Assembly: GCA_024699855.1 (NCBI GenBank)
Contig: JAMPIQ010000001.1
Coordinates: 10,168,001 to 10,232,000 of the forward strand
DNA: 64,000 bases
DNA from: Aphelenchoides besseyi
Lineage: Eukaryota > Nematoda > Chromadorea > Rhabditida > Aphelenchoididae
Direction: 5' to 3'
A program made the position numbers and the translations under genes. This document shows positions 35,471 through 54,110 of the stretch, piece after piece. Every line of letters starts with the position of its first letter. The first letter of the stretch is position 1. The notes below the pieces were generated by a model, which ran no database searches, was not told the DNA's origin, and saw only the letters and a list, made by a program, of their open reading frames with translations.

Positions 35471-36247
35471 CAAAGGAGCGCTGGTATGTAAGGTTAGGAA
35501 CTTCGTTGGTTTTCCTCCTCACAATAAAAGGTACCAGTAGATTAATGAACCTTGGTTTATTAAATCACGACTAATAAAATTAAACAAAATCTTGGATAAG
35601 TAGAAAGGATAAAAGAATTTGAGCGTCCGTGTGGTTCGTGACGAAAATGATACGACTGAACTTAATCGACGAATGATGTAACAGTGGTGGTTTTAGAGTG
35701 GACGGGATCGAACTAAAAGATCATTAGAAAGTTTATAACGAGACATTACAGGCACCTGTTGGGTGGACTCATCAGCTTAATTTTTTGATCATTGTTGACT
35801 TCATTCTTTTCCGAATTAAATCTTTACAAAAGGTAATTTTTTGTGATTTTTAATTTTTTAAGCATAATGAAAATTCAGCGTTAGTTTGTTACATGCTACG
35901 AATTACCGCCAATAATTATGGATTTAACTATAATAGTTGGACTTATTGTTATGGGTCTTGACCGCCACAATCACGGACTACCATTAACTCCAACCAGAAT
36001 AAACAGGATAAAATTTATTATCCGGTAACAACAATAAAATTTCAGAATTAAACGAATTAGATCAACTTGAAAACAATAGTGATATTTGATGATTGCATTG
36101 ATGAAAAAAAACAAGACAGCATTGCTAAATTCTATTCAAAAAAGGCATACAAACTTCGATGTATTTTATTTGACTCAAAAATACACAAATTTACCTAGAA
36201 ATAATATTAGACAAAACACCAACTTATTTATTCTCTTTGAGCAAACT
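35471..36247. other. AT-rich gap left of the Maverick
   Basis: No gene or repeat recognised. It ends with the target-site copy CAAACT (36242-36247). Confidence 0.4.
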
Positions 36248-36579
36248 AGAAGAAAGGCAACCCCGCGCTATTGCAAAATGAGCAGGGCTCCGCCCTCTGC
36301 AAAATATTTCGAAATCGTCTGCGCGCCCGCCCTCTGCGAAATATTTCGAAATCGTCTGCGCGCCCGCCCTCTGCGTTTCTTTCGAAATCTTTTGCGCTCC
36401 CGCCCTCGGCGTCAACCGGCGATCAGGTACCGTATGCCGCAAGCCCTTCACTCGGGTCACACGCAACTGAGCCGTTCTGAATTGAAAACTAAAAAGAGGA
36501 AGCGTTTTATGTTCCGCCCCGAGCACAATCCAATGGCCGCGTGCCCGCCAATGATTCAGGTTTGCCTTCAATCACGTGA
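36248..36579 (+). repeat. left terminal inverted repeat of the Maverick
   Basis: 332 bp, starting AGAAGAAAGGCAACCCCGCG. It matches the right end base for base by eye, except that it holds one extra copy of a 37-bp subrepeat (CTCTGCGAAATATTTCGAAA...) near 36295-36370. It ends at CACGTGA. The stop codon of the membrane protein gene lies inside it. Confidence 0.93.
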
Positions 36580-37191
36580 ATTTTGTACTCCCAACCCGAG
36601 GAACGTTTGCTTATGGTAACCAAAGAGAGCATAGAATATGCAACAAAATAGTAAACAAACAAAGATTATAATCCAAGTCAAAGCAAAGGTTAATGAAAAG
36701 GACAATGTGGGGGAGGGGTATTGAAAACAGTTGTAGAAAGGTGTGAAGCTGCAAAGAGAAAAATGACAATGCTCGTAACCGTAAACTGCCAATTGTAACG
36801 CGTGTTGTTTGGAAGCAACGACTGAGGTTTCAGGCGAACAGTTAAAGGTGAGAAAATTACCGTTACCGTGAAACGAAATTTTGTTGACGAGCACGCGGAT
36901 GAATAGCCATTTGTCTTTGTAATCCAGCCATTCAGTTTCGTTCGGATTACCGGAGATTTCCACTCCCCAAACCGTAGTGTTTTCTGGCGGCAAACGGTTC
37001 CGCAACGAAAATATGCATTCACCCAACGCGACGTGATAATCAATTGGATGCGCGAGTTCGTCGAACATCAATCCAAACCAGAATTCATTTTCGGAGTTGA
37101 GAAAAGTGCGATCAAAGAGTTTGCCGGTAACATTCGGTTCGATTGAGCGGCAATGTACAAAAAGGAGGGAAATTATGAATACCGACTTCAT
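36568..37191 (-). CDS. glycosylated type I membrane protein of the Maverick
   Basis: 207 residues in one exon. A signal peptide (MKSVFIISLLFVHCRS) is followed by an ectodomain with four N-glycosylation sequons (NVT, NTT, NET, NCS) and several cysteines. One strong transmembrane segment (TFALTWIIIFVCLLFCCIFY) and a short cytosolic tail complete it. It is the leftmost gene, reading outward, with its last codons inside the terminal repeat. The layout suits a surface protein of an enveloped particle. It is far too short for the herpesvirus gB-like fusogens reported from other nematode Mavericks, and no such gene is seen in this copy. Function unknown. Confidence 0.65.
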   Translation of the reverse strand: MKSVFIISLLFVHCRSIEPNVTGKLFDRTFLNSENEFWFGLMFDELAHPIDYHVALGECIFSLRNRLPPENTTVWGVEISGNPNETEWLDYKDKWLFIRVLVNKISFHGNGNFLTFNCSPETSVVASKQHALQLAVYGYEHCHFSLCSFTPFYNCFQYPSPTLSFSLTFALTWIIIFVCLLFCCIFYALFGYHKQTFLGLGVQNSRD

Positions 37192-37230
37192 TACAGGGGG
37201 TTGGTTGTAGTAAAGTGTTTATTTAGACTT

Positions 37231-38780
37231 TTAACGGATACAGGGGAAAATGTCAAGTAATTGGCTGGCAATTTCAGAGTAGGTGTCGAAAAAGTCTTCA
37301 AAGTCCTCGAGTTGGCGTATTTCATCGTAATTATCGTACGCGAACTTCAATGCGTGAACGTGTAACTCTTTGAGATGCGGACGATCGAAAGCCACTTTCA
37401 GGACCGCGAGCACGTTTTTGGTTGTCAAATTGGTAACGATCGAGTCGACGCAAGTTTGCTGGAAAATGGAATGTAAGACAAAAGCGGAGAAAACGCACCA
37501 CAAGATTGTCGATTTGATAGCAGTCGGCAATGGGCAAAAGTTCAGCGGCAATGTCGTTCAGATTGTCAACCTTGTTCTCGTAGATGTAAATGAGCATCTT
37601 TTCGACCATTGCAACTTCAAAACCTTTGATCCTAACCACTCCGCTCGTTTGTTCTTTGATTTTCTTGTCGAACATTGCGCGAAAGATTGGAGAGCTGCCG
37701 GAAACAATTGCTCTACAAATCTAAAAGTGAAACTTGGGTGTGAATAAAGCAAATAAATATCAACTTTGAAAATCTTGTTTTCGACGTGAATTTCAGCATC
37801 CGAGAAGAAGGGATTGTTGAAAAAGGATGCGAACCGCTGATCGAAAATCGGTTTAGGGGGAGGCGTTATGAAGGCGGTGATTGGACGAATGCTGCAATGG
37901 ATATTGAACGGGCCTTCGACGATAAAATCCTCAAGTTGACTCAGTGTTTCGTAGTGCGAACAACCACGAACCGAATCATTCAAAAAATCATGATTGAATG
38001 CTGAAACCGAAAAACTAGAGAATAGGGGGAAAACTTACAAATTTTGCGCAGGCGGTGATTTGTGTTTTCCAACCAAAGGTCGAATTGGATGGTCAATTTG
38101 GAGCGGGCACCAAACGTGTTCACTTTCAGTTCAAGAGCACAACGATTTAGGTAATAGCCACCGTCGCCGCGCGGATAGAAAACTAGAGCAAATTTGGCGT
38201 CTTTTAATTGAGGAACCGTAAATTCATCGCTTTCCCATGGTGTTCCCGTTCGAATGTCGGCGAATTGAGTGGCCAAGTCGCGAATGAGCCAACAATGTAA
38301 TGCGTTTGTGGCGGAAATTGAACCGACCGTTTTTACCGGATAACGTAAACGCAAGCAAACGAATATTGTTTGCCAATGAATCAATTCGCGCTTGTGTCGC
38401 GCCGGTAAAAACGAACGCCAACACTTTGAGTCGGCGTTTATTTCGACGGGACGATTGAGGCCTAAAGAACGATATTCAAAACCAGTAGACTTGTCAACTT
38501 ACCTCGGGTTCCATAACGCTGTTTGTCGTACGTTTCGATCCACGCGTTGCAGTTCATGGACTGAAGAGTTGACCGGAGGCTCCATGATATGCATTTCAAT
38601 ACACGCATCCGATGGCTCGACATCGTTTTTGGGTGTGAACCGTAGATAGAACTTGATGGCTCCGAATTGCGGATGATCGAAGGCGAAGACGTCGCTGATC
38701 CACCAATCATCGACGGCCGCCTGCTGATAACGTTTGATGTAGTCCTCGATGCGCCAAATTGCTACGGTCGAATCTTTCAT
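37231..38780 (-). CDS. MATH-BTB protein (two MATH-like parts plus BTB)
   Basis: The first MATH-like domain starts STVAIWRIEDYIKRYQQ and includes FAFDHPQFGAIKFYLRF. A second starts ALHCWLIRDLATQFADI and includes KDAKFALVFYPRGDGGYY and FDLWLEN. The BTB/POZ domain follows (FFSDAEIHVENKIFK, SGSSPIFRAMFDKKIKEQ, VEKMLIYIYENKVDNL, IADCYQIDNL) with a BACK-like end. In nematodes such proteins are substrate adaptors for cullin-3 ubiquitin ligases. The correct frame shifts near 38550, just before NCNAWIETYDK. The same base context occurs in the relic at 34.65 kb. It is probably captured from the host. The region between it and the next gene (38781-39049) shows only an upstream acceptor-like TTTCAG. Confidence 0.75.
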
Positions 38781-39049
38781 AGGGGAAGCCGTTTCTGAAA
38801 CATAATGAGTTAAACTCAAGAATGCCGAGAAAAATTTTAAACAAATTTCCGAATGCGCTTATCGGTGCGAGTGATCGGAGCGGAGCGCGAAAGCGATTTT
38901 ATTTTGACCGCAACGTGAGAGGGCCATAGGGCGTTCACTTATCAATGCGAACAATCTGATCGCAAAAAAGCACAGGGCCAAAGTGTGTAACAATTTTCGG
39001 GCCAAAATGTAAAGATTTTGACAAATGTCAATTTTGTGAATTGTGTGTG

Positions 39050-39725
39050 ATGGAAAATATTAAGGACCGTGAACTAGTTAGCCAATTATGGCGTTCGAAA
39101 GTGGCCAATTATCCAGCGGTTGTTTATCGTTCGGATGATCGAGTATTGATGAACTATTTCCCGTTCCTCAATACGGCCGCCGCCGCCTACACGCCGCAAA
39201 AGTTGTTGCGGCGCTTCGCGACGGACGAAACTCCGCTAAATGCCGCCAATATTCGTCGCCAATGGATTCGATTGGTGTTTCACCGGCTAATCGATGCGTT
39301 GGCACTCGACGTTGCTTTCCCGGCCCTAAAGCAGGTGGTATTTTCGGTGGGCTTCGGATCGAGTCAATTATAATCAATTTCCATTCGTTTAGGTCATTGC
39401 TGGCAATGATCCGATTTGGAGTGATGAGCGTTGTTGGGCCGCAACCGATATGGACACGAACCCCGATGACTCCAGCGTTGAACCGGTAATTAACCGGGTG
39501 TACATCAATTGCGATTTTGTGCCATTGCTGCCCGGGGAACCGGGCTGGAGCCCGAAAACAATGCTCACGACATTGATCCACGAGCTTGTTCACATGTTAG
39601 GAGCTTATGTGGGGGTTTGCATGTACACCCACGGGCCGCTCTTTGATTTGACGACTTGCTTCGTTTTGGAGCGCCTCGAAACTGCAATTGGAGTGCAGTT
39701 GGAACTCGCGGACATTAAGTGGTGA
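39050..39725 (+). CDS. SprT-like zinc metalloprotease
   Basis: Two exons with a 58-nt intron. The second exon has the active-site motif TLIHELVHMLGAY (HExxH at 39579-39593), followed 12 residues later by THGPLFD. That is the HGPxF signature that supplies the third zinc ligand in SprT/Spartan proteases. The protein is about 205 residues with a helical N-terminus and no signal peptide. SprT-like enzymes cleave proteins cross-linked to DNA. In an element whose polymerase is of the protein-primed type, a role in removing or maturing the terminal protein is conceivable, but that is inference. Reads intact. Confidence 0.65.
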
Positions 39726-39881
39726 GTGATGAATAGAAGGAAAATCAAACGGTTGAGATTTTAGAAGTGAGAGTTCCAAACGGCGCAAATCGAGAAGCCC
39801 GTTGTTTTTCAAATTTGTTTGTAAAGTTTGTATTTGGAATGCCTAGAACAATCAACGTGCAAAGAAATGAAACGTCAAAGA

Positions 39882-39889
39882 CTATATAA
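39882..39889 (+). promoter_or_regulatory. TATA box of the Maverick TBP gene
   Basis: CTATATAAA about 30 nt upstream of the TBP ATG at 39916, in the sense orientation. Similar boxes occur near 48490 and 52204. Confidence 0.55.
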
Positions 39890-39915
39890 ACAAACTGAAC
39901 AAATGTTCGTGAGTA

Positions 39916-40494
39916 ATGGAAGTTAAATTGGTGAACATTGCCGTTGCATTCGATATTGGAACTTCGGTGGATTTGAACCGAATTTGCAATATGTTAGCTT
40001 GTACATACGATGCGAAAAAGTTTTCGGCATTGATTTATCGTTGCAATGGAGCAATTAGAAACGAAAAGATTTCGTTTCTGTTGTTTTCGACCGGTAAGGT
40101 TGTAATGACGGGTGGAGTCAATGAAGATGGAAATGCGGAGGCGCAAAGATTTGTCGATCGTGTGAATAGTGTCACAAAGTTTCAAAGCCGAATCCACGAC
40201 TATCGAATAACCAATCTCGTTTATCGAGCATTGATGCCCATTCGGCCGCCGTTGCGTTTGAATGGTTTGCAAGAGGTGGGAGCGAAACTGTTTTCTAATT
40301 ATCAATTCTGTTACGATCCCGAACTGTTTCCGGGCATGCACATTTTCGATAAATGTCAACGGGGTTGTGTAATTATGTTCACAAGCGGTAAAGTGATGAT
40401 AACCGGAGTCAAAAAGCGTCGTGCAGTTGAAACCTACAAAAAATTTTTGCGCGAGTTAGCTGCCAAGTATGTGCAAAGATTGTGTTGTGAATAA
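39916..40494 (+). CDS. TATA-binding protein homologue
   Basis: A single 192-residue exon with two TBP-like halves. The first half has KLVNIAVAFDIGTSVDLNRI and ISFLLFSTGKVVMTGG. The second has NYQFCYDPELFPGMHIFD and GCVIMFTSGKVMITGVKKRR. These match the conserved features of TBP: N-(I/V)-V-(S/A)-x-(V/F), the FSSGK(M/V)VxTG turns of both halves and YEPELFPGL between them. The length fits the saddle domain alone, with no N-terminal extension. It diverges strongly from eukaryotic TBP, so it is not a recent host copy. It is predicted to bind TATA DNA in the nucleus and direct transcription of the element. Reads intact. Confidence 0.85.
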   Translation: MEVKLVNIAVAFDIGTSVDLNRICNMLACTYDAKKFSALIYRCNGAIRNEKISFLLFSTGKVVMTGGVNEDGNAEAQRFVDRVNSVTKFQSRIHDYRITNLVYRALMPIRPPLRLNGLQEVGAKLFSNYQFCYDPELFPGMHIFDKCQRGCVIMFTSGKVMITGVKKRRAVETYKKFLRELAAKYVQRLCCE

Positions 40495-40663
40495 AAAAGA
40501 TTGCACTTTTGATGCGCCAATGGAGCGTATTTTAATCGAGCGAGATTGTTTTGAGAAAAATTATCAGCGGCGGGCCGACGATTTCGGATCTGCATTTTTT
40601 CATCAAACGGGGGGGTTTTTTTTTGCAAATGGCGTTCAACTCAACTGAACAGTGAAAAATCTT

Positions 40664-40944
40664 ATGCCGGTCGAGTCACGTGTACTACGAGGCGATACCG
40701 CAGTGGAGATTGGGTTTCGTATCTCCGTCAAGATGGTCGTTCGTCCGACTAAGGTAATGATTTTTGGGGTATGTTTTTGAATTCTCTTTGAGTACTTTTT
40801 TTTATTCAGCAATTTAATCGAATGTTGTAGGCGTGCAATCTTTGTTGTGATTGGAAAAGGTTACAATCGGCCAACAAATGGATTTCCGCTGAAGGCGGAG
40901 ACTTTAATCAATGGAGCTATTTGATCGAGCCAAATCACGCCTAA
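40664..40944 (+). CDS. small cysteine-containing protein of the Maverick
   Basis: Two exons give about 67 residues, ending in YLIEPNHA at TAA 40942-40944. The junction gives TKACNLCCDWKRL, with clustered cysteines (C-x2-CC). The intron (about 40754-40830) ends TTGTAG. Not recognised. It sits between the TBP and polymerase genes. Confidence 0.45.
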
Positions 40945-40992
40945 TAGGTTGTGATTGCGTGTTCCGTCCGTTTACATTGAACAATTTCAGAA

Positions 40993-43900
40993 ATGTCCGA
41001 ACAACCGAACGCCAAGCGCAATCGTTTAGACGAATCGGAAGCCCTTCAACAACAGAGAATGTCCGAGGAAGCGGCCGAACAGCGTCGAGCGCTCGACGAT
41101 GAACATGTACGAAGATTGATGCGGGAACTGGCCACCTGTAGGATTCCTTTGTAAATTCGGTTTTTAATGTTTGCAGATCCGGCGAATCATTTGGAACAAA
41201 TCGTTCAATATGCGCGCTCTTACTTTCCACGCCCTCCGCCGCCAATAAGACCGCCATATTTCGAACTGCCGTTTGCGACCAATCAGCAACCGCCGTCACT
41301 AAGCGGCAATGAGGCGGCGAGTATTTTGGAAGGCGAACAACACGGTTGGCCCGATGTCTATGAGGTCATCAACAACGATCGTAAGTTGTTTCCGATTTGA
41401 TTAGTTTGTGTTTCAGCGTCTTTGGTCACTCAGCCGATCGACGAGACTCTTGCTCAAATTGCCGAATTTGGTGAGTCGCGTAAACGAATGAAAATATAGA
41501 GTTTGTGCTTTTACAGATGCCGTACTCGAACGCACCACACAGCGCGGTGCAGGCAGATCGGCGGATGCCGATGAACAGTCGTTGTTCGATGCACCGGTTC
41601 GCGGCGATGTCGTCGAGGAGGCGAACGGTTTCATCAATGTGCAGAGTACATCGCACAATTGGCGCCGCAACGACATGCTGAGCCACTTGGATGTTCGGTT
41701 AGTTGTTTCTCGTGTCGAAGAGGCCCGCCGCCCCGATTTGTTGTGGGAGCGGGTTTTTGGGCGGGTTTTTGAAGAGGCCAATCAATGGTGGCTCCAGCGC
41801 ACACCGCAACAAGTGGGAATTATTTTGGAGGCTACCGGTGTGAAATTTGGGATTCCTTTTCGTTCACCACTCGAAAATAATCCGCACGCATGTGCTGTTG
41901 AGTTGGATCGGTTTCTGAGTCAATCCCAGCGGCAAATTGTACTTGCCGACATTCCTCTAACCATTTGTATTTCGGCGTTGTTTGAATAAATTGTTGTAGT
42001 TTCACGGCGACTAGTCGCAAAGATTGGTATATTCGATTGTTGTGCGAAGAACATATGTTTCGATGATGAGGGGCGGTTGAGAACTGAGGTTTTGGTTCGA
42101 ACGCAACAACAATTGGAGTCATTAATTTCCAACGAATGGCGTCTGATCGTGTATCCCGAAGAGGGAAATGTCGAGTTGTGGAAGGGCAACTACGCGACGC
42201 ATGCCATCTGTTTGCGGTTGATAGCGAATAAACTCGTGCTGTTCAATGCGGACCGTGTTTTTTTTGCTGTAAGTTTCGACTCTCTCTCGTTCTCACATTT
42301 CCTTAGGACAATGAATACTGGTGTGTCGAGTGTAGGAAGAAGATTCATCGAAAGTGCGGCAGCCACAGTGCCGGATGCCCGATTTGGTGTCCGCGATGTC
42401 GTTGTGTGGGGGCCGAGAAACCGTGCCCCGTAATCTCGGGCGAACCGCCAATCTATTGTCAAATGTGCCATTACACGTTCAACAATCGCCAATGCTATCA
42501 AAAACATTTGGAAAGAGGGTCACGCGGTGGGCGTGCCGTATGTGCGCGGTTTATGCGCTGTCTGGTGTGTAACCATAACTATTCTTATCGAGGCGTGCAC
42601 CGTTGTTTCATTTGAACTTTTGTTTGTATTTTGGAGAATCGGCGCCAATGCAGCTGGTCGCACGATCGAACGCCGATGGAACGTGTAGAAAGTGTAATCA
42701 ACAGCACGACAAACAATCTCGTTGTTTTATTCCAATTAATTCAGGCATGTAGTCTATAACCGATTGTTTCGATAAACTTTGTAGACGTGAATGAAGTTTT
42801 ACGTTATGTGTTTTTCGACTGCGAAACACAACTCGTTAATAATAAGCATGTGGGTAATGTGGTTGTGGCGGACGTGATTTGTACGGCGTGTTTGGACGCG
42901 AACTATCCGTTCGAGGGGCTTCTACGTGCGCCCGCATGTCGTTGTTTTTTGGAAACCGTACGTTTGGAACACGAATGGCGTGCCGAAAATACCGCCCCGA
43001 CGCTTTGTTTTTACGAGCTTCGATGCGACGGATCGGAATGCCGTCGAGCAGTTTGTCGAGTTTGTTGTTGGCCCGTCGACACACACCCATAAAGACGATT
43101 TGTTTGAGTCATAACGGCGGCAAATTCGACATACATTTGATTCTTGAACAACTGAACAAAACTGTCGGGCATTAAACCCAAACTCGTGCAAAACGGCTTC
43201 AAAATCTTCTCGTAGGTTTTGTGGAGGAAGCCAAAATGACCTTCTTGCAGGATGAGTATTTCATCAAAAAATGGTGACAAGCTAATCTTCAAAGACTCCA
43301 TCAACTATTTTCCGCGTGCACTCGCCACATTGCCCGCAATGTTCGGGCTGCCGGAAGCCAAAGGCCATTTCCCGCATTTGTGGAACAATCCGCGCGATTT
43401 GCAACGCGTCGAATCGCAACTCCCACCTCTTGACGCCTACGAACCGAATCGTTTGACGGCGGCGGCGCGCGAAGAACTACGCCAATGGTGGGAAGCAAAT
43501 CGGCATCAAACGTTCAACGTGAAAGAGGAGTTGGTGCGCTATTGTGTTCAGGATGTGGTGGTGTTGCGACAGGCGTGCGTGGAGTTTCGGAACGTTCTAC
43601 GTACCCAACAAAACCTCGATCCCTTTCAACGCGCCTCCACATTGCCGAATTTGGCGCTCGAGGTGTTCACCAAGCGTTTCATGCCGCCGAATACGATCGT
43701 TAATATACCAGAAGAGGGATTCGCGAAACGCGATCGTCAATCGGTGATCGCGTTACGGTAGGCGCACGATCAATCCTCGCCCAAAAATTTTTCAGGTATT
43801 TTCGTTTACGTGAACTGGAAAATCCGTCTATTGTTGTGCGCGATGCCACCTGGTTCGTGGGCGAAAAGCGTTTCGGGCACAACGGACTGAAACGAATCGA

Positions 43901-45860
43901 CGGTGTTGTAGGTGTTTTCTCTTTTGGCCCCCCACTCCCATTACAGGTTGTGGATAGGGCGACGGGCCAAGAGTTGAGTGCCATCGAGTTTATGGGCTGC
44001 TATTTTCACGGCTGCAACGAATGCTATCGCTCCGACGCAATGCGTTTGGCGCACGGTGTTCCGGCCGTGATTCTACGCAATCGAACGGAGCAGCGTATTC
44101 GCGAACTACGTCAAAAGTTTGGCGACGTCCAAGTGGTGCGTGAGTGTCATTTTCGGCGCGAGTTGAGCGCGAATCCGCAACGTCGTGCCCTCTACGAACA
44201 AACCAGCGTGGAGGAGCCGTTGAATCCGCGAAGCGATTGTTTGCGCGGCGGTCGAACCGAAGCCTTCAAAGTCTATCATTGCTGTGTTCCCGGCGAACAA
44301 CTCATACACATTGACGTGGTGAGTTTTTGTTTGTTTGTTTGTGTGTGTTTGTATCTGTTTTCAGGTTTCATTGTATCCTTACGTAATGAAGCGGCGCGAA
44401 TTCCCGGTTGGAATGCCGACCGTTCTCACGCGCGAATCATTTATTGGACAGCAGTGGACGACGGCGACACAAAATCGTTGGCGCGGGTTGTTTAAGGTGC
44501 GCGTGGAGCCGCCCCGTGCCACCAACCACGCGCTACGTTCAACTGCATTATCGTACACGTGCCGGACGTTTCACTTTTCCGTTATGCGGCCCGTGCGCGG
44601 ACGCCGATTCGCCGCCTCGTTCCTGTCCGCATAAGACGGCGCGCGAGAGGGCGTGGATTGGCGGCTACACGCATGTCGCGCTCAATCGAGCCTTGTCATT
44701 GGGTTATCGGGTAACCGAAATTTTCGAGGTATACACAATTTGGCGCAGATTTCACGCACACCTTTAGGTTTATCATTGGGACGAGTGGGCGAGTATGGAG
44801 CGGGGCAATTCGTTGTTCGCCGGCTATATGGACTATTTTTTGAAGGAAAAGGTGGAGGCAAGCGGTTGGCCCAAATCGTGCGTGACGCCCGCCGACAAAC
44901 AGCGTTTCCTCGACGACTACGAGCGCCACGAAGGAATTCGTTTGGATCCACAACGTATTGAACTGAACGCCGGACGCCGCAACACCGGTAAAATGTTGAA
45001 CAATAGTCTATGGGGAAAAATGTGTCAGAATCCGATTGAAACAATGGTGAGAAGAGAGAAAGAGAAAAAAGACTGTTTTTTATAGATTGATTATGCGACC
45101 AACGACGACGAGTTTTTGCGTTTGATCAACGACGATCGCTACGAGCTGATGAGTATTGAGCCGGTGGCGCCGGACAAGGAACGCTTGCAACGACGCCTGC
45201 GGCGCGAGTTTGTTCGCACGCCGCGCTCGAACAATGTTCCCGTGGCGTGTTTTGTTACCGATCACGCACGCGACGTGCTTTTCGATTACATGCAACAGGT
45301 GCAGGGAGAGATTTTGTACATGGACACGGACAGTTTGATTTACGTTTTGGAGGAGGGACAGCGCCGTGTGCCCGAAGGCGATCGTTTGGGTCAAATGACC
45401 AGCGAGCGTCCGGGTCGGCGTATTATCGAGTTCATATCGTAGGTTCCATTTTTCAGCCTTTACTTTCTTTCAGCGGCGGACCCAAAAACTACGGTTATCG
45501 ACACGCGGACGAAAAGACGGGCCAAGACGAATGCGCGTTCATCAAGGTGCGCGGATTCACCCTCAACTACACAACCGCCCAATTGCTCAACTACGAGACG
45601 GCGCGAAACATGATTCTTCGGCGTTTGTAAGTCGTTCATGCGGGTGTGTGTAAATTTCCTGTTGCAGTACACCGTTCGATTTTGACGATAACGAAGAACC
45701 GCACATTGTTGTTCCGTACCACCGAATCACGCGCAACGCCCGTGCTGAACTCCACAATCAACACATGAACAAACGCTACGGTCTGGTCTACAACAAAGGT
45801 TTTGTGCGCAGCGATTTGCGTATTCATCCATTTGGTTGTTTGTGTGCTTTGTGTCAATAA
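40993..45860 (+). CDS. family B DNA polymerase, protein-primed Maverick type
   Basis: A long spliced gene. The N-terminal region is polar, then comes a zinc-binding zone (YWCVECRKKIHRKCG, IYCQMCHYTFNNRQCYQKHL, CNHNYSYRGVHRCF), as seen before the exonuclease in Maverick polymerases. Exonuclease motifs are FFDCETQ (Exo I) and SHNGGKFDIHLI (Exo II, near 43108). Polymerase motif A (HIDV/VSLYPYVM) is split by an intron at 44319-44364. Motif B is TGKMLNNSLWGKM (near 44985) and motif C is YMDTDSLIYV (45316-45345). It ends in CLCALCQ. Apparent frame changes lie near 42945, 43090, 43155 and 44520, mostly at homopolymers. The catalytic residues themselves are present. It convergently abuts the integrase gene, with 6 nt between stops. 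Confidence 0.85.
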
Positions 45861-45866
45861 ATTTTT

Positions 45867-46946
45867 TCATAAAAACCGGCTCGCAGCCACCCAGCTATTA
45901 TACTCGTCCGAATAGCCGGCCCATTTGACCAAATGTTCGCGAATGCCGCGCGAATTGGTTCGCGTGCGCAGAACACGTTCGATACGATAGGCCGTGCGTT
46001 CCGCATCCACGCCGCACAGTTCGGGCTCGTAAAAATGTCCACTGATTGGGGCATTGTTGGCATCGCGTAGACAATAGGTGGGCAATGGAGTGCGAAATAC
46101 ACGCTCCACGCGATAGATTTGGTCCGTGAATGTGGGTTCGTAGCCTTTGCGGAACGGAGTTTTTTGAAGCGAAATGCGTACACTATCGCCCACGGTAAAA
46201 CGTGGCGATCGCTGCCGTACCGCGCCGCCGTACAGGCGTTCCCACAACGCACGAGCGTTCCTTTCGTTCACCGAATTGGGAGTCATTTGTGTGGTTCGAT
46301 TGACAGAGTTGTTGATTCCGTTCACAATGTCCGGCAACACATCTATCCAGCGTTCGGTTTGATGGGCGGTCATGTAGCGGTAGAGGCGATCCTTTAGCGT
46401 TCGTACCGCACGCTCCGCCGCTCCCGCGTGCACATCCGGATGGGAGTAGGTAGTGCGCCAGGCGATTTGATGCTCGCGCAACAACGCCTGCACGTGCCGA
46501 TTCGTAAACTCGCGACCCCGATCCGTAACCAAGCGCCACGGTAAATGCGTGAATTGCGCGATCAAACGAGTAAATGCTGCTGCCATGGAGGCGGCTGTTT
46601 TCGAGCGTACCGGCACCGCATAGAAGTGCCGACTCAACACCTCCACGGCGACCAGGATGTACGCGTGTTCGTCGTTCGCGTGCCTCAACTTGTCCATTTG
46701 GGCCAAATCGGCCTGTACATCCGTGTGCAGCCCGGAGGGCACGATTTGGAGGCGCGCGAACCGTAACCGCCGTGCCCGATGAAGCGTGTAGGCGTGCTGT
46801 GCCGCCAGAAAACGATTCACGGCGGTGCGGTCGAGTGTTTTGTCGTATTTGCGCGCCTCGCTCAACAGGCGCGCCGGCGCCGTAAAAGCGCAGGCGCTCG
46901 CGGCGCTCGTGTACAAACGTTTGAGCAATCGTTCTTGTTCGGCCAT
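45867..46946 (-). CDS. retroviral-type integrase with chromodomain
   Basis: 359 residues, intact. The core has the catalytic triad context VQADLAQMDKLRHAND, then LVTDRGREFTNRHVQALL, then AGAAERAVRTLKDRL (D, D, E). A C-terminal chromodomain reads YRIERVLRTRTNSRGIREHL and VKWAGYSDEYNSWV. This is the Polinton c-integrase that inserts the linear element and gives 6-bp target duplications, matching the CAAACT copies. The start overlaps the end of the upstream gene. Chromodomain may guide insertion to particular chromatin. Confidence 0.93.
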   Translation of the reverse strand: MAEQERLLKRLYTSAASACAFTAPARLLSEARKYDKTLDRTAVNRFLAAQHAYTLHRARRLRFARLQIVPSGLHTDVQADLAQMDKLRHANDEHAYILVAVEVLSRHFYAVPVRSKTAASMAAAFTRLIAQFTHLPWRLVTDRGREFTNRHVQALLREHQIAWRTTYSHPDVHAGAAERAVRTLKDRLYRYMTAHQTERWIDVLPDIVNGINNSVNRTTQMTPNSVNERNARALWERLYGGAVRQRSPRFTVGDSVRISLQKTPFRKGYEPTFTDQIYRVERVFRTPLPTYCLRDANNAPISGHFYEPELCGVDAERTAYRIERVLRTRTNSRGIREHLVKWAGYSDEYNSWVAASRFL

Positions 46947-47501
46947 AGCGACGGTCGAAACCCGCCACGACCAAAGATTATGCGATTCACGTCGTTGCGT
47001 TCATTTAAATAGGCTTGCACCAGCAACGCACCGTTCGGGGCGCGGCGTGGGGCGCGTCGCGGGTCACGCAAATAGACGAGAATGTCCCGCAAATTACTTC
47101 CCCGCACTGTCGTCCCATTCGACCGTAGAATCGTATCGTTGGCGCCGAGGAATGCGGGTCGATCGGCGTGAATGCGTTGATAGGTGCGCTCCACCAGCGG
47201 ATCGGGAGCATTTGCGGGTGGCAGTGCCGCTGGCTGTATCGGGGGCGGCACGATAGGTTGAGGCTGTGGATTCAACATTTGGACTTGAAGCGGTCGCTCC
47301 AACGCTTCGGCGTGACGTTTGCGGCGCATACGATCGCCGCGCACATAATTCGCGTGACGCGCATCCGCCGTCTCATTTACAACGGCGGCCAGCGGCGGTG
47401 ATTGTTTTGTTGGCGTTTCAGGGAGTGGCAATTGAGGTTTTCAGGCGTTCGTACATATCTTCGGGCACCAAAACCATTCGCGTCGAATGAACCAATACCA
47501 T
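46862..47501 (-). CDS. conserved Maverick protein (VLVPE type), frameshifted near its start
   Basis: The N-terminus reads MVLVPEDMYERLKTSIATP (ATG 47475-47477, another in-frame ATG at 47501), then hits a stop. The body continues in another frame as LPETPTKQSPPLAAVV, with ALERPLQVQML, a Pro-rich linker and a C-terminal domain including TTVRGSNLRDILVYL. Maverick genomes usually carry a gene beginning M-V-L-V-P-E followed by a basic middle and a G-S-N-I-x-D-L-L motif, and this fits that order. Its role is unknown. The frame change lies near 47420, and the 3' end overlaps the integrase start. Confidence 0.6.
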
Positions 47502-47826
47502 TTTTCAAACGCGAACAGGCGGGTGCCAATATTGAACCGATGGCCTCGCGGCCTTTATCAATCAATAAGCGTTTGGCGGTGGAGGGCGTACGCGAACGTG
47601 CCAAACAGCGTACAAAATGCGCATGTGCATGTAGTCGGCGTCGTTCGTTGGGCTAAAGTAATAAACGACCGCGTAAAATATTCACGCACACCTCCACCAA
47701 CGCCAACAACTGGTCATTTGTGGCGTCGGTGATCAGGCGGGCGTAGCGTTGCGCCGATGTACGACTCTTGGCCACGCGCGCCAAAAACTCTTTTTCCGCG
47801 TACACCAACGCACTAAAATTTGTCAT
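47377..47826 (-). CDS. small basic Maverick protein with in-frame TAG
   Basis: Starts MTNFSALVYAEKEFLARVAK at 47826, overlapping the ATPase stop by 4 nt (ATGA). It continues QRYARLITDATNDQLLALVE and VCVNILRGRLLL, then a TAG, then an in-frame basic half: PNERRRLHAHAHFVRCLARS, with KRLLIDKGREAIGSILAP further on. Small Maverick proteins of this type usually run uninterrupted through both halves, ending in a Gly/Leu-rich segment. So the TAG looks like a nonsense change, or the 39-nt GT..TTTAG segment around it is spliced. Confidence 0.5.
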
Positions 47827-48524
47827 CCTCGTTTTGGAACATAGACAATAATCGGGTGTTCATCGGGCCATATGTGCGTTTTGACGCGTTGAACATCGGG
47901 CGTCCGCGGATGCATATCCACGAGCAGGTAGCTGAAGGGGGTGCGCGTCGCATCATGATAGCTTTCCATAAAATAGGTCGAACGTCCCGGAAACAATTGG
48001 GCGGCCAAATTTCGCACCTGCAGTTCACCGGCCGGATTACGCATTAGGACAATGTAATGGGCATTTTGTCGTGCCGTTCGCATTTCTTTTGTAAACAAAT
48101 GTTGTGTTACGAACACCACACTCACGTTCCAATTATGCGATCCTTTAGTGAACAACGTATCCAAAAATTCGGCTCGCATGTCAAGCATCAGGTCGTCCAA
48201 AATCAACAACAATCGACCGTGCTCATCCTTTTGCGCGCGAATCATCTCCACATCTGGCACACCGGCATGCGCCACCAATTGAGGTATGCTTGACTGTAAT
48301 TGCATGATTCGCGCATTCAACTCCCCGTAGGCGTACAATACCCGTTGAGGACACTCATCGATCAGCTGATCGCATTCGCTTAGGAAACGCGCCAGCCATT
48401 CGGTTTTGCCGCTACCCGTAGCGCCCGCAATTATCATTGTAAAGGGGTGGGAAAACATTGGATCAATGAAAGAGGCGTGACGCAAAATGCGTATATAAAC
48501 GAGCGGCAACTCGATTGCTCTCAT
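47823..48524 (-). CDS. FtsK-HerA-type DNA-packaging ATPase
   Basis: 233 residues, intact. Walker A is IIAGATGSGKTEWL (near 48400-48435), Walker B RLLLILDDLM (near 48190-48220), and a downstream sensor region is VVFVTQHLFTKEMRTARQNA. This is the A32-like packaging ATPase of Mavericks and related viruses, which drives genome translocation into capsids. The first ATG (48524) lies upstream of a TATA-like box on the opposite strand. An internal Met (MFSHPFTMIIAG, 48458) is an alternative start nearer the usual family length. Confidence 0.92.
   Translation of the reverse strand: MRAIELPLVYIRILRHASFIDPMFSHPFTMIIAGATGSGKTEWLARFLSECDQLIDECPQRVLYAYGELNARIMQLQSSIPQLVAHAGVPDVEMIRAQKDEHGRLLLILDDLMLDMRAEFLDTLFTKGSHNWNVSVVFVTQHLFTKEMRTARQNAHYIVLMRNPAGELQVRNLAAQLFPGRSTYFMESYHDATRTPFSYLLVDMHPRTPDVQRVKTHIWPDEHPIIVYVPKRG
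48490..48498 (+). promoter_or_regulatory. TATA box of the virion gene block
   Basis: GTATATAAA in plus orientation, followed by a likely 5'UTR intron (about 48543-48591) and the ATG at 48606. It overlaps the ATPase 5' end on the other strand, so this spot may be a divergent promoter. Confidence 0.5.
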
Positions 48525-48605
48525 TCCAAGGAGCGGATTGTCACGTAAGTTTTGTGTTTTATCAAAAGTTGTGTGTATGTTATTGCCGCAGGACGTTTTA
48601 CTTGA

Positions 48606-49218
48606 ATGAGTTCCGGATCGTGTAGCCGCCCGGGGATTGTAAGTTGAGCGCGCTTCTTTCGATTCTTTTTCCCTCTAACTGCAGGATGTTAGGGCGTTGA
48701 ATCGCATGTTGAATCGCTGGAACCTTTTTGGCGCCAAGTCCAATTACATGCACGGTCGTCGTGCTCCACCGCCGATCAGTCCCGATTGTCGGCCGTCGGC
48801 TTCCGAGCCGGCCGTCGATGGTCGTCATCGACATTTTGGTATGCGATTGCCCCTGTTGTTGTATTTGTGTCAAGAGCAAAAACTGGAGGCCGGTGAAATG
48901 CGGCGTTTGCATCAATTGCTGATGGCCAATGCGCACAGTTACGAGCAAATGTTGCGCGCCTCGGAACTGCGTTTGCGCATCGACGGCCTGCCGAACACAA
49001 TCGCCAATCGTCTTGTTCATTTCGAAGGATTCGCACTGTCGGCCCTGAAACAACCCGCCTACAACGGCTTCAAAGGCGTCACCGTCGACCAACACTATTA
49101 CAGTCGTCATCGCATTCGCCTTCGCTATGCCTTTTTGCCGTGTGCGGTGGATCGCGTGAACGAGCGCTCGTGTAACTATCTTCCGCTAGAACTGTTGGAT
49201 ATCATTGTGCGTACTTAA
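48606..49218 (+). CDS. unknown Maverick protein of the virion block
   Basis: A short first exon (MSSGSCSRPGI) splices over a 46-nt intron to DVRALNRMLNRWNLFGAK and about 170 more residues: basic, Arg/Leu-rich, with LRASELRLRIDGLPNTIANR and HRIRLRYAFLPCAVDRVNER. It ends at TAA 49216-49218. No family recognised. Its position directly upstream of the minor capsid gene suggests a virion role. Confidence 0.55.
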
Positions 49219-49251
49219 ACGATCAACTCCGGCCGTCACACACCCCTAATC

Positions 49252-50013
49252 ATGTTGACGCATTCATTCCATATTCATTTACCGTCCGGCTGTTGTGTTG
49301 ACAATAAAGCGAATAAATTTGTCGTACGTTTGCCACGTAAACTCGAATTCCAATCCCAATGGCTGGTGGGTCTTTCGGCCTTGTACTATCAGCGTTCGTG
49401 GCGTTTCTCTCACCACGACTTTCAATGGTTGGAAGTGGAGTGGATGAATGGGGCGCGAACAGTTCTTCCATTGGCTTTGCCGCAAACGAATGATGCGTTG
49501 ACGTTGAAGCGCACACTGAACACCGCCCTAACGAACGTCAAGTATCCGAAAGAAAGCAAACAGATTGAAAAGGAAGCCATGCGTTTCGATTATGCCGACA
49601 AACGCTTCAGCTTCCATCTCAACGCCCAGCTCGTTCGCAAAGTGAAGTTTGGCGCGCAGCTCGCGTTCATTTTGGGTTTTGCGACGCGTAGCTTCAACAA
49701 AGACGTCTATCATGGCGAATTTGCACCTCTCTCCTTCAATCCCATACCGTTCATTTACGTCTACACGCCGGGACTCATTGAGCCGGTGTGTATGGGCGAC
49801 ACGAAAACACCGTTGTTGCGTATCGTACACGTGAAGGGAGAGCCGGGAGCGCCGGTGGGCGAAACGTTGGAGCCCGTCGAGTATCATCGCCTGCTTACTA
49901 AAGAAGTCGGCGAGATTAGCGTCGAGTTGCGAACCGCGACGGGCGAACTCGTACCGTTCGAGTTTTCCAGCTGTTTATTGACTTTGCGTTTCATGAAAGC
50001 ACCGCTGTTGTAA
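49252..50013 (+). CDS. minor capsid (penton-like) protein
   Basis: 253 residues, intact single exon. The start HIHLPSGCCVDNKANKFVVR leads to LPRKLEFQSQWLVGLSALYY. Later come AFILGFATRS, FIYVYTPGLIEPVCMGD and PLLRIVHVKGEPG, with a final ISVELRTATGELVPFE. This order matches Polinton minor capsid proteins, single jelly-roll pentons. Its stop overlaps the protease ATG by one base (TAATG), hinting at coupled translation from one transcript. Confidence 0.85.
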   Translation: MLTHSFHIHLPSGCCVDNKANKFVVRLPRKLEFQSQWLVGLSALYYQRSWRFSHHDFQWLEVEWMNGARTVLPLALPQTNDALTLKRTLNTALTNVKYPKESKQIEKEAMRFDYADKRFSFHLNAQLVRKVKFGAQLAFILGFATRSFNKDVYHGEFAPLSFNPIPFIYVYTPGLIEPVCMGDTKTPLLRIVHVKGEPGAPVGETLEPVEYHRLLTKEVGEISVELRTATGELVPFEFSSCLLTLRFMKAPLL

Positions 50014-50470
50014 TGCACGCGTTGAGTAATTGGGATATCGACAAGGCAATGCGCCGGCACCCGCGTATACGGCGTGAATTTGCCGGCTGTTTTAGCTGCG
50101 ATCGAATTCCGCCCAATTTGAAACCACCGTACGCGCTGGTTCTGAACATGGCCCCCCATACGCACCCGGCACTCATTGGGTGGCACTCTACGTTCCGCAT
50201 GCGGAATGTTGCGACTATTTTGATTCGTTGGGCGCGAAACCACCGCCCGGTGATATTGGCAATTTTGTGGCACGTTTCCCGCAACAAAACATTTGTTCGC
50301 GACCACTACAAGCGCTAGACTCTTCCGTATGCGGTCACTATGCCATCTATTTTCTCGTCGCACGCATCATGCATCAATCGGCCGCCTCCATTGTGAATTC
50401 GCTAAACAATCTGAACACCAAAGCGGACCTGTGGGTGCGAACATTTTACCGCAAATATTGTTCTACATAA
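50013..50470 (+). CDS. adenain-like cysteine protease, frameshifted as read
   Basis: The N-terminal frame reads MHALSNWDIDKAMRRHPRIR and reaches PPYALVLNM. The active-site frame then begins one base out of step: GTHWVALYVPHA (His), YFDSLG (acidic residue), then LQALDSSVCGHYAIYFLVAR (Gln and Cys). This is the His-Asp/Glu-Gln-Cys order of adenovirus-type proteases used for virion maturation. The break lies in or near a run of six C (about 50152-50157). All catalytic positions are present, so the gene is either freshly mutated or the run length is mis-assembled. Confidence 0.8.
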
Positions 50471-50503
50471 ACGGACCACGTATTTTTTTGCAGACAAACA
50501 AAA

Positions 50504-50872
50504 ATGCATGTGGTTTACGAGCCGGATAAAGAAAACTGGCACTTCTGTCTCACAGCTCCCCTCGACACGCGGGTTCAGTACGGTGGCGGCAGAGCCTATT
50601 TTCAGGACTATACCGCGCAACGGGGTTGCGGTCTGGGAAACCTGAATCGCTGCAGCTATCGATTTCTTTTCCCGATGCAAAAGAGCCCCGAAAACGTAAG
50701 GCCGGCATCTCTGCAGCCGGCCGGCGATTCGGCGCCACCCGTGTTGACGGAGAAGAAGAAAAAGGTGTGCAAGCCAGTCGTCCCAAAACGTCCCCTTTTG
50801 GCGTTGGGCGGTCCCGGTCTACATAAACCGTTGGGCCGACGACGTCGTACAGATATCTTTGGTGATTATTGA
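50504..50872 (+). CDS. small Maverick virion protein with a Gly-rich QRG motif
   Basis: 122 residues. YGGGRAYFQDYTAQRGCGLG near the middle resembles the Y-Q-R-G-x-G-x-G motif of a short Polinton protein encoded beside the protease, compared by some with adenovirus core or membrane-lytic peptides. The C-terminal half is Pro/Lys/Arg-rich (KKKKVCKPVVPKRPLL, LGRRRRTDIFGDY). It has a small intron just upstream (ending TTTGCAG) and lies directly before the major capsid gene. Confidence 0.55.
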   Translation: MHVVYEPDKENWHFCLTAPLDTRVQYGGGRAYFQDYTAQRGCGLGNLNRCSYRFLFPMQKSPENVRPASLQPAGDSAPPVLTEKKKKVCKPVVPKRPLLALGGPGLHKPLGRRRRTDIFGDY

Positions 50873-50876
50873 GAGC

Positions 50877-52198
50877 ATGGCTTTTACGGCCAAAATCGAT
50901 AAGAACACGGAATCCGCGTTCCCGTCCTCGTTGAACCTTTTCACTCTACCGCCCACAAATGTGGCATGCATTCGTTCGCTTCATCGCGAATTCCTGCCCC
51001 TCACACACCGCTCACCGATCATCCGTACACATTTCGCGTTCAGTCCGATAACCTATGGGTGGATTTGTCTCAAACATTCGTACAATTACAATTTCGCATG
51101 GAAGGCATTGCGCCCAATCAAGATGTGTTGTTCCTTTACCGGCCGAAGGAAATCGCTGTGCTCCAATCCAAAACTTTGGCCGCACGTTTATTCGCCAGCT
51201 GCGCGTAACAATCGGCAACGATGAGGTCTACGATTCGGGTACGCTGTTCCCTTTCCGTCAATATCTCATGGACGAGTTGAGCTTGACAAAAGCGCTGAAA
51301 GACACGGTCGGCGAAGCCAGCGGCTATTTTACGCATGAGGAATGGAACAATTACGAGGACGAGGGATTCGCGAATCGCGCTCACATGGGTACGCCGCAGT
51401 CGAACCGTTCAACTGTACTCCCGTCTCGATTTTGATTTGGCCAATCAGCCCTTATTGCTGCTCAACAACACACCGCTGTTGTTCACGTTGTATCGCGCCT
51501 CCGACGAGTTTCTCACCGAATGCCATCCGACCGCCGACATTGTAAGCGGGCGCATCACATTCACCGGACTTAAACTCTTTATACGGTTGGTTGAGTTACA
51601 GCCGTCGTTGAACTTGGAGATTTACAAACTGCTCGAAAGCCGCCCGGTTCAGTATGGGGTGCGGCGAACGGAAATGCGCTCGTGTTTCCTGGGTGCCGGA
51701 CGTGCCGAATTCGATCAGTGTGTGTTTGCGACCGCCGTACCGCGACGCCTTACCTTGGGATTAATCGACTCGCAAGCCTTTCACGGCAACCACCACCAGC
51801 CGTTCAACTTTAAACCATTCAATCTACGCGAATTATACGTTATGGCCGGCGGTCAGCAGTTCCCGCATATGCCCTACACTTTTGACTATCCGAATGAGGC
51901 TTGTACTCGCGCGTTTGTGGATTTGTACAACACAATGGGTCATTTGCAATCGAATGATTCTCCGGGCATCACTAAGCAACAATTCCGCAGCGGCTGGAAC
52001 ATTTACGCCATTTCCCTATCGCCCCACAGCGCCAATGATGACGGTTTCGAACTCGTGCGCACCGGCTCCACCAGCATACACTTACGCTTCGCCACGCCCA
52101 TTGCGGCTCCGGGTGTCGAGCTGGTTATATTGGCCGAATTCGATCAAGTGATCTCTATCGATCGCGATAGGCGTATCTTCACGGATCTCAATGTTTGA
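50877..52198 (+). CDS. major capsid protein (double jelly-roll), frameshifted as read
   Basis: The N-terminal frame has SAFPSSLNLFTLPPTNVACI and REFLPL. Later pieces in other frames are YTFRVQSDNLWVDLSQTFVQ, RTFIRQLRVTIGNDEVYDSG, TLFPFRQYLMDELSLTKALK, LYSRLDFDLANQPLLLLNN and SFNLE-like YKLLESRPVQYGVRRTEMRS. The order matches Polinton/adenovirus-hexon-type major capsid proteins. At least three frame changes (near 51003 in a CACACA tract, 51172 in an A4 run, and about 51390) interrupt it, while the last 240 codons to 52198 are open. The virion shell would not form from this copy as written. Confidence 0.8.
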
Positions 52199-52203
52199 GC
52201 GGG

Positions 52204-52211
52204 TATATAAG
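52204..52211 (+). promoter_or_regulatory. TATA box
   Basis: TATATAAG about 31-38 nt upstream of the ATG at 52242. It matches the other two TATA boxes of the element and is a plausible target for the element's own TBP. Confidence 0.55.
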
Positions 52212-52241
52212 TGCGACAACAACAATGACCATTCATTCGCC

Positions 52242-52427
52242 ATGCATTCCGCCCTCGAACAACCGCCCGTTCTTACGTGGGACGAAGAGGAAACCGAGGA
52301 GGACTTTTCAGGCCTAATAATCATTCTTTTCATTCTCTACATGTTTGTTTGGACGTTCGGTTTCACGTATTGGTTATATCGACGGTTGCGCATTCCGCAC
52401 GCAATCATTGCCCCCTCAAACATTTAA
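52242..52427 (+). CDS. small acidic single-pass membrane protein
   Basis: About 61 residues. The N-terminus is acidic (TWDEEETEEDFSG), followed by a hydrophobic segment (LIIILFILYMFVWTFGFTYW) and a basic tail (LYRRLRIPHA). It has its own TATA box. Its stop overlaps the stop of the J-domain-like gene on the other strand. Not recognised; it could be a virion or host-membrane protein. Confidence 0.55.
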   Translation: MHSALEQPPVLTWDEEETEEDFSGLIIILFILYMFVWTFGFTYWLYRRLRIPHAIIAPSNI

Positions 52428-53087
52428 AAATACTTTATTGCCTTCGTTATGCATTGCCGAAACCGAATGCTTTGCAACAATATTTTGACGCGTTTCACCG
52501 GAATTGTGCCCATGTAGCGATTGGCTTCTTTCGCTTTGGCGTGCACGAGTTTGGCAAACGCCAGCCCCAACGGATTCATTCCGCGACCGTGATTGTTCAG
52601 CACAGCGCAAGCAAACTCGTAGTCTTGCAATTGACATTGGAATCTATAAACAAATTTCTCTCTCTTCCTCTCCACTCTCCACTCGCCTGTTGCATCGAGA
52701 CGACGCCGGTTTGGTTGCTTTTCGGGTTGAAGGGCGATGATTTTTGGCAATCCATTTGGCATAATCTCTAAACACACATTGTACGTTGAACTTTTGTTTT
52801 CCCACCGTTCAAACTTTTGCGCGTTCATGTCTTTTATCATCTGCACGGTCGCATTGATTCGCTTGATGAGTTCCTCGTTCTCCATTGTTCGTGCCGACTT
52901 TTCCACATTCTCACCACCTTCCCCGCTTTTATCCGAATGAAGTTTAAGAGCGAGTTTGGCCCGTGCTTTCGAAATTGCCGCCACATTGTAGCGGGTTTCG
53001 CGATACTCCAAACACTCGTACAGCAATTCGAATACTAAAAATCGAGCCTTGCTCTTATCGTACTTGCTTACCGTTTTCAGTTGTCAT
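52424..53087 (-). CDS. J-domain-like protein of the Maverick
   Basis: A short first exon (MTTEN) splices over about 38 nt to VFELLYECLEYRETRYNVAA, then ISKARAKLALKLHSDKSGEG and ELIKRINATVQMIKD. The pattern LALKLHxDKxG with flanking helices is that of DnaJ J domains; the HPD loop here reads HSD. The remaining 120 residues are Arg/Lys-rich and unrecognised. J domains recruit Hsp70; polyomavirus T antigens use one during infection. With Pro changed to Ser in the key loop, Hsp70 stimulation is uncertain. Reads intact. Confidence 0.55.
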
Positions 53088-53102
53088 TGGTCAAAATCTG
53101 CA

Positions 53103-53534
53103 ATGTCCGATTCAAAATATGAAAAAGTTCCGTGAGTTTGACAACCGGCGGCGGCGACACCCCGCGATTTGTTTCAGGCGTTTGACGATCAAAGTCTGGA
53201 GTCGATCGTTGAAATACGATGGGAAGGCAAAGAAGGCGACCGTCCGCTTGACCGGAATTACTAGCAGCGATCAGCAAATGGAAATGCTATTCTTCGACAC
53301 GTTCGCCGATTACGCATTGGATTCGTTCGAGGCGAACAAGGTGGCTTGGGCGTTTTCAATCGTTCGCTATTTGTGCCTTAGGTCTACACATTCTTCAACA
53401 TTAGTCGTTCGCGGGACGACGCCACCGTCTTCTTCTACAACGCATCCTCGTCGTTCATTTGCGGCGAGGTTGAACTTACTTTTGTTGTAAGTGATTACAA
53501 TGCATTACTCAAATTTTTCCAGTCTACCAAATAA
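53103..53534 (+). CDS. OB-fold protein resembling RPA ssDNA-binding domain
   Basis: Three exons with short introns give about 110-120 residues. The core reads RLTIKVWSRSLKYDGKAKKA, TVRLTGITSSDQQMEMLFFD, TFADYALDSFEANKVYTFFN and SSFICGEVELTF. Strand order and the pattern F-x-D..(V/A)-D....L..xxKVY.(F/I)...I resemble RPA70 DNA-binding domains. It would protect single-stranded DNA during strand-displacement replication by the element's polymerase. Its divergent first exon starts only 15 nt from the J-domain gene's ATG, so the two may share a bidirectional promoter. The family call is by eye. Confidence 0.55.
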
Positions 53535-53623
53535 CCACGTAACGCCCTGCCGAACAGGCCCATTGTAAAGCTTTTGAATCAATAAATTTTTGATTGTTTT
53601 CTTTGGTTACCATATCAAGCAAG

Positions 53624-53918
53624 TCACGTGATTGAAGGCAAACCTGAATCATTGGCGGGCACGCGGCCATTGGATTGTGCTCGGGGCGGAACATAAAACG
53701 CTTCCTCTTTTTAGTTTTCAATTCAGAACGGCTCAGTTGCGTGTGACCCGAGTGAAGGGCTTGCGGCATACGGTACCTGATCGCCGGTTGACGCCGAGGG
53801 CGGGAGCGCAAAAGATTTCGAAAGAAACGCAGAGGGCGGGCGCGCAGACGATTTCGAAATATTTCGCAGAGGGCGGAGCCCTGCTCATTTTGCAATAGCG
53901 CGGGGTTGCCTTTCTTCT
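53624..53918 (-). repeat. right terminal inverted repeat of the Maverick
   Basis: 295 bp, inverted copy of 36248-36579 lacking one 37-bp subrepeat unit. Followed directly by CAAACT. Confidence 0.93.
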
Positions 53919-54110
53919 CAAACTGATTTAGACTTGACTAAAATTTTCAGTGACCAATATAAAAGAATTAGTAAAGATAAATTCAAATAATTATGTAATC
54001 TTGCTTGGAGCAATGACTCTGGATGTTTTAATTGATAAGTCATCAAAAAAGAATTATAGTGGATTTAGGAAAGAATTAGTGCACTTTTATTTGCTAAAAT
54101 AAATAGGGGA

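Follow-up and report, generated by a model that had tools for sequence, protein, structure and literature searches.

The stretch of DNA analysed here (the window) comprises 64,000 nt of contig JAMPIQ010000001.1 of the nematode Aphelenchoides besseyi (C1:10168001-10232000) and contains a 17.7-kb Maverick/Polinton at window positions 36248-53918. Long terminal inverted repeats (TIRs) that begin with AG are a hallmark of Maverick/Polinton elements. In the element, the TIRs are 335 and 298 nt long and their ends read AGAAG...; over 335 alignment columns they differ by one mismatch and one 37-nt gap, which is the difference of one tandem unit. A perfect 6-bp target-site duplication, CAAACT, lies on both flanks, as is typical of this class, and the element codes for a viral-type DNA polymerase B (PolB) with exonuclease and polymerase motifs, an RVE integrase with a chromodomain and an A32-like ATPase. 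Thus, a preliminary description of this DNA, made from the letters alone, was right to propose a Maverick/Polinton with near-identical terminal repeats and a perfect duplication. It also called the element complete, which holds for the structure (TIRs, duplication and core genes), while the frames of the major capsid protein (MCP) and the protease are broken in the window copy. Instead of the about 18 genes counted there, we list 14 candidates (Table 1), and seven of these are firmly based on homology, i.e. BTB, the TATA-binding protein (TBP), PolB, the integrase, the ATPase, the minor capsid protein (mCP) and MCP.

Table 1. Features of the Maverick/Polinton and its insertion site, in window positions
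Feature	Position	Strand	Evidence and remarks
Left target-site duplication CAAACT	36242..36247	.	directly outside left TIR
Left TIR	36248..36582	+	one more 37-nt tandem unit than right TIR
Putative membrane protein, 207 aa	36568..37191	-	signal-like N terminus, hydrophobic C-terminal segment, 3 sequons, by eye
MATH-BTB type gene	37231..38858	-	several frames; BTB, Pfam E 1.8e-12
SprT-like metalloprotease candidate	38960..39725	+	two frames, HELVH in second; Pfam E 0.12, under cut-off
TBP, 192 aa	39916..40494	+	two repeats, one open frame; Pfam 9.2e-24
PolB	41492..45630	+	Pfam 5.3e-14; ExoI, ExoII, ExoIII and motifs A, B, C all present, in different frames
PolB intron, 46 nt (GTGAGT...TTTTCAG)	44319..44364	+	removal joins motif A; splice sites read by eye
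RVE integrase, 377-aa frame	45867..47440	-	C-terminal chromodomain; rve 3.4e-13, Chromo 7.8e-7 (Pfam)
A32-type packaging ATPase, 233 aa	47823..48524	-	Pfam Pox_A32 4.3e-8
PAZ-like protein, ~170 aa	48697..49218	+	44 residues near C terminus with Argonaute PAZ C-terminal signature
mCP (penton), 253 aa	49252..50013	+	homologous to other Maverick loci adjoining their MCP
Adenain/Ulp1-like cysteine protease candidate	50013..50470	+	frame interrupted in window copy
MCP	50903..52198	+	frame interrupted in window copy; long open frames in other copies
Small protein	52236..52427	+	one hydrophobic segment, by eye
J-domain-like open reading frame of the preliminary description	52424..53026	-	DnaJ E 0.15; HSD instead of HPD
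OB-fold open reading frame of the preliminary description	52948..53490	+	label unsupported
Right TIR	53621..53918	-	shorter by one 37-nt tandem unit
Right target-site duplication CAAACT	53919..53924	.	directly outside right TIR

Relatives of the element were searched for in the contigs of this one genome (47.4 Mb in 31 contigs, three of them large with 18.1, 17.8 and 10.0 Mb). Two further copies each have their own perfect 6-bp duplication, GGTAAG in the case of the C2 copy (C2:549843-569064) and CACCAC in the case of the C3 copy (C3:240669-252718). The C2 copy and the window element are collinear from end to end, apart from ~1.5 kb inserted in the BTB region. Across the 17,050 columns aligned outside the TIRs, we counted 17 substitutions (0.1%) and 26 indels between the two. 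Because this copy is collinear and has its own target-site duplication, the element is not an assembly chimera, which answers the concern about an assembly join inside the element; and because merely 17 substitutions separate the two copies, the element has moved recently, in agreement with the recent insertion claimed before. The C3 copy is a deleted Maverick with TIRs and a capsid-protease block, the latter ~98% identical to that of the element, while PolB and most of the other element DNA were not met. Inside it lies a Helitron-type element with PIF1 helicase genes and a weak Helitron_like_N match. Most likely, the C3 copy is a Helitron nested into a deleted Maverick. A capsid-bearing Helitron was also considered and rejected, because a 3,000-base piece of the Helitron part is matched over its full length at 9 other places of the genome.

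For the core genes, the preliminary description had named PolB, integrase, ATPase, protease and two capsid proteins. Pfam matches support the first three and both capsid genes match those of other Mavericks in the genome, while the protease is a candidate below the cut-off. Its position and its His/Cys motifs, read by eye, fit the adenain/Ulp1 type; the Pfam matches, Peptidase_C5 with E 0.016 in the C2 copy and Peptidase_C48 with E 0.13 in the C3 copy, both lie below the cut-off, a point against the model favored below. The two capsid genes are assigned by homology and by a gene order shared with other Mavericks, and their jelly-roll fold is putative; neither protein has a Pfam match at E 1 or a PDB sequence match at E 10. 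In a comparison of nine element proteins with PHROGs, eight had no match at E 0.1, and the integrase alone matched, to six families with transposases among them.

The other Mavericks of the genome belong to a second lineage, which resembles the element in having PolB and capsid genes and in the order of the latter: at 9 loci, mCP is followed by MCP in the same orientation. It differs in sequence. PolB at the seven loci compared is 28-33% identical to that of the element, and the capsid genes are 25-41% (mCP pieces) and 25-38% (MCP pieces) identical. Among the positions listed for TBP, SprT, PAZ, PolB and capsid matches, which are lower bounds, no element-type TBP, SprT or PAZ match lies within 60 kb of the PolB and capsid loci of the second lineage. 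By these sequence comparisons, the element is a distinct Maverick/Polinton lineage within this genome.

Based on these data, we suggest that the element is a Maverick/Polinton with its own replication and capsid machinery and with captured genes that would act at the interface with the host, a reading to which we assign a probability of about 0.7. Several observations speak for a structurally whole but genetically dead element, whose frames carry real indels and whose movement, if any, depended on proteins from outside. In the window copy, MCP was met in four pieces and the protease in two frames; 25 of the 26 indels that separate the window and C2 copies are not multiples of three (22 are of 1-3 nt); PolB has several frame changes, one alone of which was shown to be an intron; and the likely N-terminal part of the integrase lies upstream in another frame. 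The frame changes of PolB and of the integrase upstream part occur in both copies. By contrast, the C2 copy has uninterrupted frames for MCP (481 aa) and the protease (183 aa). Conversely, TBP and the integrase (377 aa) are uninterrupted in the window, whereas in the C2 copy TBP is split in two pieces and the open reading frames (ORFs) listed include no integrase frame as long. Moreover, indels outnumber substitutions, unlike in neutral decay.

As a control for indel noise, we compared six copies (L061-L066) of an unrelated Helitron, taken from 10 full-length matches, in 15 pairs. The six pairs among L063-L066 differ by no substitution but by 2, 4, 5, 5, 6 and 8 indels (1-3 nt each) in ~3 kb, while L061 and L062 differ from each other by 4 substitutions and 4 indels and from L063-L066 (four pairs each) by 9 substitutions and 5-8 indels and by 5 substitutions and 2-5 indels, respectively. 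Per kb and copy, the indel density is ~0.8 in the six substitution-free Helitron pairs versus ~0.76 in the Maverick pair (0.65 for indels of 1-3 nt). Because substitution-free Helitron copies show a similar density, assembly noise in repeats is the likeliest cause of most private frame breaks, and slippage in the animal could be a further source. Decay of the core genes had been the first reading considered and was placed behind assembly noise after this control. Not every frame change is private noise, because the upstream part of the integrase sits off-frame in both copies. Also counter to noise, the 219-aa J-like frame is open in the window only; both other copies have it interrupted at roughly one and the same position. 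Taken together, we regard a dead element as unlikely, though it is the best placed of the alternatives together with a spurious PAZ match (below). More generally, gene frames in repeats of this assembly need care, as the substitution-free Helitron copies show.

The preliminary description had also claimed an expanded gene set, and this is borne out by TBP and BTB, which are clear beside the core genes. TBP, in particular, is secure. Residues 6-178 align to solved TBPs (PDB, 1e-19), both repeats score in Pfam, and the alignment retains the four Phe and the YxPELFPG stirrup, which we take to be the DNA-intercalating residues and the contact to TFIIB, respectively. An element-type TBP with 89% identity is present at C2:3468596, where TIR sequence also occurs, and shorter pieces elsewhere in the genome are 71-87% identical. 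Between the window and C2:3468596, the ratio of nonsynonymous to synonymous divergence (dN/dS) is 0.29 (dN 0.055, dS 0.192), whereas the other two reading frames give 1.44 and 0.99; three fragments have values of 0.34 (89 codons), 0.37 and 0.45 (74 codons each). Because the ratio is low in frame and not off frame, TBP has been kept for its protein during the divergence of the elements. In other words, the element TBP is under purifying selection. The TBP-type loci of the cell, at C2:5973209, C2:10375576 and C1:2728567, the third of which we take to be TLF-like, are 23-36% identical to the element TBP in the aligned stretches, and a further Pfam TBP match lies at C2:13256656.

Two side observations concern this region. 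At four places (C1:16677604-16679656, C2:3226619-3228671, C3:9154378-9156430 and C3:623876-630771), an element TBP is interrupted by ~1.8 kb after residue 24; each of these places adjoins a BTB gene of 88-89% identity, and together they look like an amplified derivative family. The ~1 kb that separates TBP from the start of recognisable PolB (window 40495-41491) is partly conserved at C2:3467.3-3470 kb.

A PAZ-like ORF, absent from the earlier gene list, lies between the ATPase and mCP. The Pfam PAZ match (6.5e-5) agrees with a match to the Ago2 PAZ domain in PDB (7.4e-4) and with a profile comparison to ten PAZ exons of the host (hhalign; probability 83.7, E 8e-6, 44 columns). Outside the two element copies, the PAZ-like protein has a single match in the genome, at C1:15790538 (E 6e-10; 43% identity in 58 residues), its nearest relative, and two neighbouring ORFs of this locus (C1:15790.5-15791.2 kb; L040:5536-6194) in turn weakly match the C-terminal part of PAZ (0.089 and 0.0012). 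The ORF has a codon score of 0.303, compared with 0.131 for the antisense ORF and -0.319 to 0.160 for six other non-gene ORFs. The resemblance could nevertheless be a product of chance, with no PAZ protein encoded. The Pfam score is 23.3 against a cut-off of 28.8 bits; the match spans 43-45 of the 123 profile positions (60-102 in Pfam), so that recognition is limited to roughly the C-terminal third of PAZ; the codon score helps but gives no clean separation, with seven core-gene pieces at -0.058 to 0.328; and a single-sequence fold prediction was uninformative (pLDDT 35). With three comparisons and the C1 locus pointing the same way, we consider a chance match improbable, to about the same degree as a dead element. 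RNA binding by the protein is a hypothesis, because only the C-terminal third of the domain is recognised. Separately, PAZ loci of the genome occur in pairs with identical scores and frame lengths (C1:10156457 and C1:10361128; C3:2617842 and C3:2990473), the C1 pair flanking the window on either side in opposite orientation; these pairs are possibly recent Argonaute gene duplications or duplicated assembly.

The SprT-like and MATH-BTB labels stand in part. For the former, the HExxH zinc motif is read directly as HELVH, but the profile score of 12.7 bits is below the cut-off of 25.6 bits, a further point against the model favored below. Besides the C2 copy, the gene is found in two further places at 88-90% identity, and compared with a copy of the gene on C3 dN/dS is 0.20 for the second frame, which contains HELVH, and 0.40 for the first. 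For the latter, BTB is clear, while MATH was recognised by eye and has no Pfam match. The element BTB recurs at 88-89% identity in six further places, and at five of these, element-type TBP pieces lie no more than a few kb away. One place on C2 matches at 79% in a stretch of 53 residues and at 48% overall, and the remaining BTB loci of the genome, presumably host genes, reach up to 65% identity (over 80 residues). Because of this similarity to the genome's large BTB family, sequence comparison suggests that the BTB gene was captured from this host or a relative.

The same similarity speaks for the accessory genes being passengers, i.e. host fragments picked up by chance and without a role for the element, and the PAZ gene and the J-like gene were met in only two and three copies, respectively, of this lineage. 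However, TBP, SprT and BTB are each met again at several sites that resemble the element, and the low dN/dS between elements (0.29 for TBP, 0.20 for the second SprT frame) speaks against genes without a role. We therefore consider passengers an improbable account, and a somewhat poorer one than a dead element.

Three further labels of the preliminary description found little or no support. The 207-aa protein, which had been called a glycoprotein from features seen by eye, is the only membrane candidate of note in the element and has no family match; compared with a second element it is 80% identical in amino acids over 121 codons, with a dN/dS of 0.53. The ORF described as J-domain-like scores 12.6 bits against a DnaJ cut-off of 27.8 and lacks HPD. 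The supposed OB-fold protein gave no Pfam match at E 1; its sole PDB match (E 1.6) is a transcriptional regulator, not an OB protein by name. Upstream of the element, an older relic at 34202-34937 (+) consists of pieces that share 77-85% similarity with the TIR and with segments of the element, and one piece matches a segment in the MATH-BTB region of the C2 copy.

Mavericks/Polintons of animals, including nematodes, are 15-20 kb long and typically carry PolB, a chromodomain integrase, an A32-type ATPase, a protease and two capsid genes. The element shares with them the TIRs, the 6-bp duplications and these genes, with the protease as a candidate, and adds TBP, the SprT-like candidate, MATH-BTB and the PAZ-like gene. 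To our knowledge, TBP and PAZ are outside the usual Polinton gene set. Some nematode Mavericks carry a large gB-like fusogen; by contrast, no large gene of this type and no matching Pfam family were seen among the element ORFs scanned, and the longest unassigned stretch of the element is ~1 kb (40495-41491). Large eukaryotic DNA viruses also encode TBPs. Likewise, haloarchaeal viruses have their own TBP, and three halovirus records match that of the element with 25-36% identity, although these are unrelated elements. No other relatives were found in viral contigs and phage records; the viral contigs were scanned with single sequences of mCP, TBP, ATPase and integrase, which reach close relatives only. 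The PAZ-like product may also resemble viral suppressors of RNA silencing in binding small RNAs or mimicking Argonaute, a likeness that here comes from the PAZ C-terminal signature.

The lineage of the element generates 6-bp duplications on insertion and has genes for PolB, a chromodomain integrase, a packaging ATPase and capsid proteins. In the model that we favor, with replication, capsid and captured host-interface genes, linear element DNA would be replicated by its own protein-primed PolB, packaged into a capsid processed by the element's cysteine protease and integrated by its integrase. TBP would bind element promoters and bring in TFIIB and the Pol II machinery of the host, so that the element would control its own transcription; the DNA-bending and TFIIB-contact residues are retained. 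The SprT-like metalloprotease could remove proteins crosslinked to DNA, e.g. the terminal protein on element ends, the MATH-BTB protein could steer host proteins to the Cul3 ubiquitin ligase, and the PAZ-like protein could bind the ends of small RNAs or compete with host Argonautes. Thus, the element may steer its own transcription and perhaps interferes with RNA silencing. One observation speaks against this model: no convincing shared promoter motif was found in nine upstream regions, with three of the nine starts guessed. TATAWA occurs 2 times in 1,170 nt of upstream regions versus 11 times in 35,342 nt. Of the small virus with transcription and replication helpers envisaged in the preliminary description, TBP remains, by sequence and purifying selection, and the SprT-like protease is plausible, while the OB-fold and J-domain labels found no support. 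A fully self-governed, silencing-evading element, with a selected initiation factor of its own, a PAZ-type decoy against the worm's Argonautes and a crosslink protease for protein-capped ends, would go considerably further and is doubtful.

Large DNA viruses are thought to choose their own promoters. If TBP is indeed under selection in an animal Maverick, such an element would likewise make its own promoter choice instead of relying on the host TBP. A PAZ-like protein in a mobile element would make it possible to ask directly whether transposons act against the Argonaute pathways by which they are silenced, and the two near-identical copies at different insertion sites provide a clean case for dating Maverick movement.

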